This document shows positions 11,886-62,392 of a stretch of DNA of 64,000 nucleotides, in pieces. The stretch covers positions 239,501 to 303,500 of the forward strand of contig OY735225.1 of the NCBI GenBank assembly GCA_963457665.1, read 5' to 3'. Numbering within the stretch: position 1 is the first letter of the stretch; each line of letters opens with the position of its first letter. The DNA is from Thysanoteuthis rhombus (taxonomy: Eukaryota; Mollusca; Cephalopoda; Oegopsida; Thysanoteuthidae). A program made the translations under genes and the position numbers. The notes beneath the pieces were generated by a model that worked only from the letters and a program-made list of their open reading frames with translations, searched no databases and had not been told where the DNA came from.

Positions 11886-11973
<88 letters not shown>
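11886..11973. repeat. (TA)n followed by (GT)n
   Basis: About 32 TA units run directly into about 11 GT units, a common compound microsatellite here. Confidence 0.95.
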
Positions 11974-11974
<1 letters not shown>

Positions 11975-12138
11975 AGGTGAAATATATATCACAAGTCGTA
12001 CTTATCGTTCCGAAAAATCTTCATTCCAGCAGTGCTCAATACTTAGATTAGAGACAATATATCGATTAAATACATTTATTTTGTCCATGACAATCATATA
12101 CTCTCATTTCACTTTATTCAGTGAATATATGTTTTTAC

Positions 12139-12202
<64 letters not shown>
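12139..12202. repeat. (TA)n microsatellite
   Basis: About 31 TA units bordering the left arm of the foldback element that follows. A direct, diverged copy of that arm (12056..12130, cgattaaatacatttatttt) lies on its other side. Confidence 0.95.
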
Positions 12203-12206
<4 letters not shown>

Positions 12207-12522
12207 TAAACTGATAATTTTTTTCTATGACAATGGTATACCTTCGTTTCACTTTATTCAGCTCCTCAGATAGACAATGTTACTAGGCCTTACAGTTGTG
12301 TATATACTCAGAAGGTAACTTTCATTACGATGTTAACTGTGACGGTTAGAGTTGTAATTATTCACCTTACAAGCATTTAACCAACCATAACAAATCATAG
12401 TGGAAATTATATTCTGAGTATATATACAGCTATAAGGCCTAGTAACATTGTCTGAGGAGCTGAATAAAGCGAAACGAAGGTATACCATTGTCATAGAAAA
12501 AAAAATTATGAGTTTAATCGAT
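12201..12522. mobile_element. Foldback element with two hammerhead-like cores
   Basis: The left arm 12201..12313 and the right arm 12412..12522 are near-perfect inverted repeats of about 110 bases, with a loop of about 98 bases. The outer ends are atcgattaaact and agtttaatcgat, and (TA)n flanks it. On the plus strand the right arm contains CTGAGGA (12452), a GCT/AGC hairpin, GAAA (12471), then AC-GAAG-GTA. The left arm has the same on the minus strand with one stem base changed. Sequence to the right (cactttactcccgagtctg) resembles the 3' end of the Penelope-like fragment at 56.0 kb. Confidence 0.75.
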
Positions 12523-12599
12523 ATATAAAAATATAAGGATTGATAAACCTTACCTCTGAACACTTTACTCCCGAGTCTGTCTCACTCTTTACAGTTCAC

Positions 12600-12602
<3 letters not shown>

Positions 12603-12661
<59 letters not shown>
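12603..12661. repeat. (TA)n microsatellite
   Basis: About 29 TA units after gtctcactctttacagttcac, the same order as at 56.05..56.17 kb, where a (CT)n tract intervenes. Confidence 0.95.
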
Positions 12662-12665
<4 letters not shown>

Positions 12666-14819: not shown

Positions 14820-16810
14820 CGCGTGTACATGCGAGCTAGAATGAAAATTACTGTGTTCTAGAGAGCTGCATCACGAAGGCGTCAGGTTGAGCCACAACCC
14901 TCTCCTTCCAATGTAATGGGGAGGTGCTGTCCCGATAAAAAACTGATAACCCTAAACTGGTCATTAGATACTTTTGAGGCTACTGTTTGTTTATTTGCCT
15001 TCCCATGGCGGCAAATATGGCATCAGGTCGGAACCCATGGTTGAGTTAAAGGTGGAGTCTCATAGGTGAAGATTTCCCTAGTCTCAACGACGGATGTCAC
15101 AAAGACATTAGGATGGGCTTGACAAGCTGAACTTGGGAGCCTGGGACGAGTCCCGGGCTGTGCTTATCTGAACTTCTAGGCCGTATGGCCTCGATGAACA
15201 TATACTACATACTGATGTTAGTTCAAGTTTATTTGTCCGAATCGTCATGACTGCAAATGTGACACAGGATCCAGACCCATGGTCGAGTTATAGGCATGGT
15301 CCAGCATGCGAACTTGGTTTCAGGGCGAAACCAGTGCAAGCTCCCAGGTTGAATCCTGAAAAAGGATCCTGGGATCGGAACCCATCCTAGGCAGTGTTCA
15401 TCGAACTTCTCAGCATGAGTGTTCCAGAGCACACATACTATACTTTGATCTTAGCCATACATGCGGGTGAAATTTTTTTTCTGTTTTCAAACAGTACAGG
15501 TATCATGTGGCAAAATCACAAAAATGCAAAATTTACATGTATACCGAGTAAGTGTAAAAAGTTTACAATTTCCAGAAAGTTACAAGTTGACTGATATTTT
15601 ACCAAGTAGAACAAATGAATTTTTTTACAGATGATTAATGATTACGTACAAATGAAAACAAATTCACCCGAGACGGAGGCAGATTATAAACGCGGCAATC
15701 TCATTCTTAATTGTTTTCTGGACACCTTGCTATAGAGAGCAACAGCTATCACGTGATGCAAAAATTGCCTCTCCAAAATCTCTTGATAGTGATTCCACCC
15801 AGACGCGCCGAAGCGAACTTCTGCAGGCTAATGACGGCCTCATTTATTTGCACTCCCACAGGAACGAAATGCGACACAAGGTCAAGCTTAACATGTGGAG
15901 TATCCCATAAAAATTGCCCTAGCCGATGCAACCGAGGTCACGAAAGCGTTAGGACGAGCCCGACCTGTCCCTCATTGTGCAATGAAATTGCGCCGCCTCA
16001 AGGCAAACTGCTTCTCCGCTGCTGGGCCGAGTAATAGTAAGAGAACCCAAGGACGTATTAAAAGGTTCCCAATGCGCAGCGTCAGTCTCTCCTCATTGGC
16101 ATTGCACCTACGTACCAGATCTCGGACACACCCGACCAGCCTCGGGCCCATTTGGATGACAAGTGTCAGTACCGACTCTACGGCCTAGGTCTCTACTTAT
16201 CCACTCTACCATCCGAGCAAAATGCTGGACAAGTTCAAGGCTTTACGTGGGGAAAAGTAGGAGCTAACCCACCGTAAATAGCTCCAGCCGACGCGACCGT
16301 GGTTATCAAAGCAACTGCAATCACGAAAGCATCAGGACGAGCCCGACCTGTCCCCTTTAGTGGGGCTCACGGCCTAGGTGCTATTTAATCACTGTCCCAC
16401 CACGGCAATATGTGACACAAGGTCAGGCTTCACGTGGGAAGATATAGGAGCACTCCTTCCAAAAATGGCTCCAGCCGACGCAGTTACCGTTGAAAAGCTC
16501 GTCGTAATGGCTAGACAACAACGTCACCCGCGAAAGCATCCACCAGGGGACCTGCTCCTTTAAGTGCAATGGAGCAGTGCTGCCCCGGGGAAACAGAGAC
16601 CCTGCAGCTAAGGACGAATGCAAAGGCTCCTCAAAGCGCTTAGCAAACACAGCCTCAGTTAAACCTCATTGGCTTACGCTTGCACCGGTGCACTCGGTCT
16701 TTGACACACACTACCTCTCCAGCCCATTCGACAGGCAAGTGTCAGTACTGACTCCTCGGTCTATGCCGTGGAACAGATACTACATTTTGATCCTGAAGAA
16801 CAGACTAGAA
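14820..16810 (+). repeat. Family D, GC-richer tandem-like repeat block
   Basis: Diverged units of roughly 180 to 220 bases follow one another from about 15840: each has gacacaaggtcaggctt, then cacgtgggaa, ttgctccagccgacgc, a cacgaaagcgtcaggacg block, gagcccgacctgtccc and gtgcaatgg. Clear units begin near 15840, 16200 and 16385, and looser ones lie at 14820..15200 and 15215..15400. The same unit recurs at 51690..52110. Frames of up to 107 codons here are not supported as genes. Confidence 0.7.
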
Positions 16811-20643: not shown

Positions 20644-20880
<237 letters not shown>

Positions 20881-21212
20881 GTGGGTGTGGATGTGGGAAC
20901 AATTCAACATTACAACAATAAATAGGCAAATGATAATTTTTACATACACAATACTAGTTATCAGAAAGAAAAAAAATACTAATCAATAAATTTTGCCATA
21001 AAGTATATAGACTTTTTTTTTTCTAATGAAAAGTGTTTAACAAGTTGTGTGACTTTAGCATCTGCAAATAAGATATGCATCTGATTGTATATCTAAGCAT
21101 AAAGAAACATATTGAGAGACAGAACTTACATTTCCTCTTCCATATTGGGAGTTCACAGCAGACATTACAAGATAAAAATGTTTACTTTGAGGACACTTTT
21201 TTTTTTCTTTAA

Positions 21213-51006: not shown

Positions 51007-51147
51007 TAGGATGTGGATTTGCTACACGAACAAGTTTATGTTCCTACCCTCTCCGGGCCTCATCAGTCAAATCTGATCGATCACCTGATGAGGCCCAGAG
51101 GGGGCAGAAACATAATCTTGTCAGTGTAGCGAATTCACTTCCTATAT
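51007..51147. mobile_element. Foldback element with hammerhead-like core
   Basis: The left arm (ggatgtggatttgctacacg, aacaagtttatgttcctacc, ctctccgggcctcatcag) is inverted after an 18-base loop at 51085..51144. The right arm on the plus strand reads CTGATGA (51085), a GCCC/GGGC hairpin, GAAA (51107), then AC-loop-GTC (51120). Position 11.1 is A instead of C, and helix I does not pair well, so it is at best a degenerate ribozyme. (TA)n follows at 51145. Confidence 0.75.
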
Positions 51148-52392: not shown

Positions 52393-52440
52393 GACGGTTG
52401 CTGATGAGTGAATTAGGCACGAAATGTTAACATTCATAGG
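52393..52440 (+). ncRNA. Candidate hammerhead ribozyme core between (TA)n tracts
   Basis: CTGATGA at 52401 is followed by GTG-loop-CAC, then CGAAA at 52420, then an ATG-TTAA-CAT hairpin and TC. The G10.1/C11.1 pair is kept. Helix I would have only about two pairs (TG before the core with CA after the site), which is weak. The core consensus of hammerheads is known; the assignment here is by eye. (TA)n lies on both sides. Confidence 0.4.
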
Positions 52441-56066: not shown

Positions 56067-56565
<499 letters not shown>

Positions 56566-62257: not shown

Positions 62258-62261
<4 letters not shown>

Positions 62262-62308
<47 letters not shown>

Positions 62309-62332
62309 TGTGTGTATGTGTGTGTGTGTGTG

Positions 62333-62378
<46 letters not shown>
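62262..62378. repeat. (TA)n, (GT)n, (TA)n
   Basis: TA tracts of about 22 and 19 units flank a 30-base GT-rich block. Confidence 0.95.
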
Positions 62379-62379
<1 letters not shown>

Positions 62380-62392
62380 GAACATTATTCAT

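Follow-up and report, generated by a model that had tools for sequence, protein, structure and literature searches.

Hammerhead ribozymes in described elements

Hammerhead ribozymes in Penelope-like elements (PLEs) were reportedly described by Cervera and de la Pena in 2014 and by Lunse et al. in 2017. According to one published account, the PLE hammerheads are usually minimal and lack helix III (PMC6155905), while in a review (PMC7761336) their role in these elements is given as unknown. For the Anolis PLE PAc, copying is described as starting inside the RNA, with a preference for AT-rich DNA and with cutting and extension of both strands; its ribozyme is placed where the ORF begins, which is upstream of the point at which reverse transcription sets in (PMC11167929). 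Another hammerhead-bearing class, the metazoan retrozymes of mussel, coral and axolotl, is described as tandem repeats of 150-450 bp with type I hammerheads in which the loops of helices II and III are closed (PMC7229834). For the giant-squid genome, 235 hammerhead-1 loci are reported (PMC6962438).

The window analyzed here is a stretch of 64,000 nucleotides from Thysanoteuthis rhombus (assembly GCA_963457665.1, contig OY735225.1, positions 239,501 to 303,500, forward strand), and window positions are counted from its first letter. The site under study very likely comprises three fragments, all of them decayed 3' ends from a single PLE family; near its own 3' end, the ancestral RNA of that family would have contained a complete type I hammerhead. 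Like the PLE hammerheads as these sources portray them, this ribozyme is associated with an EN+ element with a C-terminal GIY-YIG, has a type I core and lies near AT-rich targets, and it is located upstream of both the presumed reverse-transcription start and the 3' junction. The published PLE motifs, as summarized there, usually lack helix III and loop contacts, whereas the present family consensus, with six pairs in helix III and 8 bp in helix I, falls outside the minimal subtype (without helix III). We regard it as a variant of the PLE hammerhead because its helix III is longer, and it looks better formed than those usually described. The PAc ribozyme is reported to overlap the ORF start (PMC11167929), whereas no coding is seen around the present one. 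The type I hammerhead with closed loops on helices II and III is shared with the retrozymes as outlined in PMC7229834, but the present family is not organized as 150-450-bp tandem repeats and has PLE coding remains upstream. Our literature search returned no title or abstract on this PLE family; the original papers on PLE hammerheads lay outside its reach, and an extended helix III in a PLE has possibly been published.

Organization of the window site

The central feature of the site is a near-palindrome at 12203-12523 with two facing arms, in which 133 of 148 aligned letters are identical. Its RNA is predicted to form a hairpin of -182.8 kcal/mol (z -24). Judged from its sequence, this foldback is a pair of PLE 3' ends lying head to head, and a third fragment of the same kind is found next to the left arm (Table 1). 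Elsewhere in the genome, the left arm has matches of mostly 78-82% identity (lowest 71%).

Both arms contain the series CTGAGGA-GCUGAAUAAAG(U/C)-GAAA, on the minus strand in the left arm and on the plus strand in the right arm. A first-pass annotation, made from the letters of the window, had proposed a type I hammerhead core in the right arm, and CTGAGGA, the GCT/AGC hairpin and GAAA are indeed present at 12452-12474 (+), with the counterpart at 12247-12269 (-) reading CTGAGGAGCTGAATAAAGTGAAA. The same annotation described the left arm as a mirror copy with one stem change. The stem change is there (GUGAAA in the left arm, GCGAAA in the right arm), but the description missed that the right arm lacks the 4 nt before CTGAGGA.

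The minus copy keeps every core nucleotide together with 5 bp of helix I, next to the junction. In the plus copy 4 nt of helix I are deleted and four pairs are possible, two of which are G-U. The weak pairing of helix I that had been pointed out is therefore a property of the window copies, which keep only 5 and 4 bp, but not of the family consensus with its 8 bp. The minimum-energy fold of the minus copy is another structure and not the full hammerhead, while that of the plus copy has the hammerhead helices II and III with helix I paired otherwise. A transcript across both arms is predicted to bury each ribozyme in the long hairpin. We take the window copies to be fossils.

Table 1. Features of the window site, ordered by position (covariance model built without the window copies)
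Feature	Position	Strand	Description
(TA)n(TG)n	11887..11975	.	3' junction of the third fragment
Third PLE fragment	11976..12139	-	on the left-arm strand; long 3' form with TTCACC at its end, beside (TG)n/(TA)n; broken off within the ribozyme
Third hammerhead remnant	12073..12132	-	39.8 bits, covariance model; CTGANGA part gone
(TA)31.5	12140..12202	.	3' junction of the left-arm copy
PLE 3'-terminal fragment, left foldback arm	12203..12377	- (ribozyme strand)	short 3' form, ends ...TTTAATCGATATA into (TA)n
Hammerhead, best window copy (left arm)	12221..12277	-	89.4 bits, covariance model; copy spans 12213-12280
Helix I, minus copy	12277-12270 with 12228-12221	-	
CTGAGGA, minus copy	12269-12263	-	
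Helix II, minus copy	12262-12251	-	
GAA, minus copy	12250-12248	-	
Helix III, minus copy	12247-12230	-	
C17, minus copy	12229	-	predicted cut between 12229 and 12228
PLE 3'-terminal fragment, right foldback arm	12391..12523	+	faces the left arm head to head
Hammerhead, right-arm copy	12445..12510	+	69.5 bits, covariance model
CTGAGGA, plus copy	12452-12458	+	
Helix II, plus copy	12459-12470	+	
GAA, plus copy	12471-12473	+	
Helix III, plus copy	12474-12491	+	
C17, plus copy	12492	+	
(TA)30.5	12602..12662	.	past the right arm, not directly abutting

Fold of the family consensus

The first-pass reading assumed a minimal helix III and a cleavage site to match. This does not hold for the family: with the cut at GUC|AUAG, the consensus (drawn by eye from seven copies) folds into a type I hammerhead with a complete core, surrounded by three helices of which helix I is open. 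Helix I consists of UUGUCUAU/AUAGACAA (8 bp) and may be extended by UACA/UGUA across a bulge AAUUUA. Helix II is GCU/AGC (3 bp) with the loop GAAUAA, and helix III is A-C-G-A. G-G UAUA C-C. U-U-G-U, comprising six pairs and one mismatch, with C17 preceding the cut. The cleavage site that goes with the first-pass reading, GGUA|UACC, was dropped, as no helix I forms there (checked by eye). The hammerhead is the minimum-energy fold of the consensus, at -11.6 kcal/mol (RNAfold). Three further copies were folded singly: L014 adopts the same hammerhead, and so do L048 and L061 apart from slight shifts at the junction or in helix III. These copies have unexceptional fold energies, since 20, 11 and 9 of 200 shuffles fold at least as stably as L048, L061 and L014, respectively. 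Across the 57-nt block, L048 5047-5114 is identical to the majority of 53 copies, and it retains the core together with all helices. Given the complete helix III of the consensus, the family should be capable of cleaving as a monomer, and the role of PLE hammerheads therefore becomes testable in a simple transcript assay.

Strings of the form CTGANGA..GAAA are more frequent in the window than chance predicts (14, where 4.5 +/- 2.3 would be expected). Within the window, the full hammerhead descriptor that asks for a helix I of at least 4 bp matches only at the two foldback arms. The same descriptor gave 20 matches in 464 strand-Mb of dinucleotide-matched random sequence (about 0.006 per window), with helix III set to at least 3 bp in the random runs and at least 2 bp in the window, where both matches have 4. 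When helix I was required to have at least 8 bp, one match was left in 464 random strand-Mb. The 57-nt block, with up to three mismatches, is found at 11 places in the genome, and its reversed-pattern control at none. A covariance model built from 52 copies, with the window copies left out, recovers three copies in the window at E <= 10 and otherwise only matches at E 1.2 and 2.2. Further hammerhead-like strings had been listed in the first-pass annotation: those at 51085, 52401 and 55964 do contain CTGANGA..GAAA but fail both the descriptor and the covariance model (E <= 10), and those at 56513 and 25.66 kb lack CTGANGA and have no covariance-model match. In the aligned pairs, 89.4% of cells are paired, versus 32-53% after sliding by one to three columns; for helix III the value is 87.8%.

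Copies across the genome

The genome searched comprises 2.73 Gb in 514 contigs. A 322-bp query gave 82 matches (both arms counted) of 71-86% identity, apart from the self match of 100%; this count is a lower bound, as it comes from the best 40 of 897 genome candidates. With the covariance model we found 69 ribozyme copies, and all 58 family loci contain at least one. Of 68 distinct ribozyme rows, 53 were placed in alignment A1 and 52 in A2 (without the window row). The 15 rows left out have indels, truncations or a divergent 5' part and include the window copies at 12441 and 12073.

At all 12 fixed positions of the core (CUGANGA, GAAA, U16.1 and H17) the hammerhead letter is the majority letter among the 53 copies, although the majority letters represent a biased sample, because most copies were found with ribozyme-containing queries. 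The core is complete in 15 of the 53 copies, including the minus copy of the window, and core and helices are both complete in seven. Departures are more frequent at the freely variable N7 than in the 11 other core columns (14/53 versus 46/583, p = 0.00014), in a comparison that was picked after the data had been seen and in which G12 was set aside as part of a CpG. G12 is A in 18/53 copies, and N7 is the most variable of the remaining core columns. H17 is never G (0/53).

Covariation of the stems does not exceed that of shuffled alignments, as 130 to 240 of 500 shuffles match or exceed the observed values; the test has little power because the copies decay neutrally. Special conservation of the ribozyme block was sought across 19 loci and not found (0.79, versus 0.70 upstream and 0.78 downstream). 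The copies look like neutrally decaying, unselected repeats, and the functional evidence therefore rests on the consensus and not on selection among copies. The first-pass annotation had named the lack of a hammerhead model match and of stem covariation as grounds against a ribozyme. The outcome is mixed: there is no Rfam hammerhead match in the window or at 15 family loci and no covariation beyond shuffles, yet the consensus folds as a hammerhead and the copies resemble neutrally decayed derivatives of it.

Remains of a probable Penelope-like element upstream of the ribozyme

Homology extends upstream of the ribozyme for very different lengths, in L049 for less than 10 nt and at most for about 1.5 kb, which indicates 5'-truncated copies. 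The upstream consensus of 12 long copies encodes two peptide pieces, a linker (KKNIIWFTPPFNKQVITNVGK...) and a piece of 152 aa that matches the Pfam GIY-YIG domain PF01541 with 23.8 bits, just over the cut-off of 22.6. In tblastn searches of 85 records (overlapping records counted), 28 contained the EN piece, 18 the linker and eight an RT piece. In locus L065, RT fragments lie directly upstream of the linker, and RT, linker and EN follow one another in that order upstream of the ribozyme within this single copy. The related locus L084 has RT, linker and EN in that order, with the endonuclease C-terminal to the RT, and contains the RT-like motifs FDIMDFYPSI, MGSLDSAE and YRDD, which may be of the PLE type. 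Between the end of the EN frame and the ribozyme there is about 0.77 kb without detected coding. From this order of pieces, the upstream layout is that of an EN+ Penelope-like element, and the Penelope-like neighbourhood suggested by the first reading is supported.

Pfam detected neither RT nor endonuclease in single decayed copies (with X at stops), and L083 gave two sub-threshold matches, both to unrelated families. The 1.5-1.6 kb upstream of the ribozyme in three single copies contained no Pfam domain, though this stretch includes the decayed EN. A solved-structure search with the EN piece gave no match. The RT of L084 has only a weak match to an NCBIfam retron RT (22.6 bits versus a cut-off of 235) and none in Pfam. 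Among the copies recovered there is no intact autonomous element. Interpretation of the 5'-truncated copies as LINEs or SINEs was dropped after the linker and GIY-YIG pieces emerged. PLEs of the Naiad type have an N-terminal endonuclease; this assignment was dropped as well, because the endonuclease here is C-terminal to the RT. Elsewhere, G000:C17:48781997-48827517 contains seven matches to the PLE RT piece on one strand over about 46 kb, possibly a tandem PLE array.

3' ends, (TA)n tracts and head-to-head pairs

The copies terminate at either of two positions, roughly 29 nt or 113 nt beyond the predicted cut, and (TA)n/(CA)n is often found there. The long form (29/53 copies) ends near TTCACC, about 113 nt past the cut, and is followed by CA/TA repeats. 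Among the other 24 copies, 16 enter (TA)6+ soon after ...AATCGATA, about 29 nt past the cut. The split into 29 and 24 depends on a similarity threshold, and two of the 24 (L047 and L022) resemble shortened long forms by eye. The reported closeness of the copies to (TA)n is correct for 38/53 copies, which have (TA)6+ within 250 nt downstream (versus 12% of window 250-mers and 22/162 locus flanks), and can now be assigned to the 3' side. On the upstream side, 8/53 copies have a six-unit run of TA, CA or TG no farther than 250 nt away.

The annotation had further proposed a family of ribozyme-bearing foldbacks. The repeated unit is instead the PLE 3' end, which is single at 49 of 58 loci in the stretches examined. 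Two or more ribozyme copies are present at only nine loci, each of which includes a divergent pair with its 3' ends outward, and nine out of ten opposite-strand neighbour pairs are divergent (p = 0.011). The window arms rank each other 7 and 1 of 68 by similarity. Most partners in the remaining divergent pairs have low ranks for each other, and short arms limit the scores. When 13 same-locus pairs were compared for common origin, only the window pair and L042 1274/1488 reached first rank in at least one direction. The divergent pair L065 1651-1718 (-) and 3219-3286 (+) comprises the only two of 53 copies with T at G12, which hints at a common RNA source; the rank test does not single this pair out. 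As for the pseudo-LTR tandems of whole units that characterize EN+ PLEs, the short stretches examined show one same-strand pair of fragments, that of the window.

These observations can be arranged into a model. The element RNA would have cut itself at GUC|AUAG, thereby parting element units from read-through or tandem transcripts, with the predicted cut lying shortly before the region in which reverse transcription would start. New copies would have been primed at AT-rich DNA, here (TA)n, and reverse transcription would have started inside the element RNA, as in the Anolis element PAc. Insertion from both sides of (TA)n would then leave two 5'-truncated copies head to head, i.e., a foldback. 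Two such copies are possible because (TA)n has the same sequence on either strand and because PAc is able to cut and extend the two, and the 3'-end anatomy fits the PAc model with its internal reverse-transcription start, AT-rich targets and extension of both strands. We favour two-strand insertion from one RNA as the account of the foldback, although it is weakly supported in view of the low partner ranks in other divergent pairs. The anatomy of ribozyme, two 3' ends at TA/CA stretches and head-to-head pairs provides a concrete model of microsatellite targeting by PLEs. Its broadest form is conceivable but rather doubtful, namely that a monomer-competent PLE hammerhead, tens of nt upstream of a (TA)n-primed start, selects the RNA template and that two-strand (TA)n insertion explains such foldbacks generally.

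Alternative explanations

A type I hammerhead in A+T-rich, dispersed copies would also be expected of a metazoan retrozyme. Retrozymes are short, non-autonomous tandem repeats that spread via small circular RNAs and are described from mussels and other animals (PMC7229834). However, the long copies reach 1.3-1.5 kb upstream into linker/GIY-YIG and RT remains. The covariance model found one same-strand neighbour pair, that of the window, among the 58 loci, and 49/58 loci have a single copy in the stretch examined. We disfavour the retrozyme and consider it improbable. The single-copy loci also count against a foldback or MITE-like DNA element that multiplied within (TA)n in the form of an inverted repeat and carried the ribozyme as a passenger. 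Such an element is suggested by the near-palindrome of the window and by the divergent pairs at 9/58 loci, but the 5' ends vary by truncation, the 3' ends fall at two places and PLE coding remains are found upstream, so that this disfavoured reading seems very improbable indeed.

The PLE 3' sequence could also resemble a hammerhead by accident and never have cleaved itself, which would be in line with the lack of covariation, the little special conservation, the lack of Rfam matches at the family loci searched and the unexceptional fold energies. Such an accident is unlikely in our view, as random sequence yielded a single match with a helix I of at least 8 bp in 464 strand-Mb, the majority sequence has a complete core and N7 is the most variable non-CpG core position. 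In addition, the host element is of a kind already known for hammerheads in the accounts available (PMC6155905, PMC7761336).

Rfam searches and a second hammerhead family

The Rfam hammerhead models gave no match in the window at gathering score or E <= 10. They gave none at 15 family loci either, of which L001 (the window site) to L007 were searched at E <= 1 and L008-L010, L013-L016 and L018 at gathering score. Rfam-based counts of animal hammerheads may therefore miss such families. Other Rfam models gave matches below their cut-offs, i.e., the U11 spliceosomal RNA at 15718-15846 (-) with 32.2 bits (cut-off 39), and mir-297, mir-1277 and mir-3149 at 20646-20889, 62260-62384 and other (TA)n/(CA)n runs. 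The miRNA model matches on simple repeats are probably dinucleotide-repeat artefacts.

In the genome, RF00163 gave one match above its cut-off among the best 73 of 299,496 candidates, which is a lower bound. This match, L050 (35.6 bits versus a cut-off of 34), belongs to another repeat, family B (the best 40 of 1670 candidates scored). Family B, found at L050 1501-1544 (+) and in L074-L081, is a second hammerhead-bearing repeat in this genome. In the alignment of eight places, its hammerhead appears to be of the canonical type I, a palindromic AGCU loop closing a helix III of 2 bp, and the copies lead into (TA)n. In the nine family-B records (eight places) neither the covariance model of the PLE family nor the PLE peptide pieces found a match. 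Family B, as matched by RF00163 (Hammerhead_1), and the present PLE family have the same core order, and both lie beside (TA)n. They differ in that L050 has the 2-bp helix III with the AGCU loop and exceeds the Rfam cut-off, whereas in the PLE family (family A) helix III is longer and of another kind, and Rfam gave no match at the loci searched. Within the window, 52401-52430 (+) reads CTGATGA-GTG..CAC-GAAA-TGTTAACAT and adjoins (TA)n. It has a core and helix II without helix I, and may represent a decayed member of another ribozyme family.
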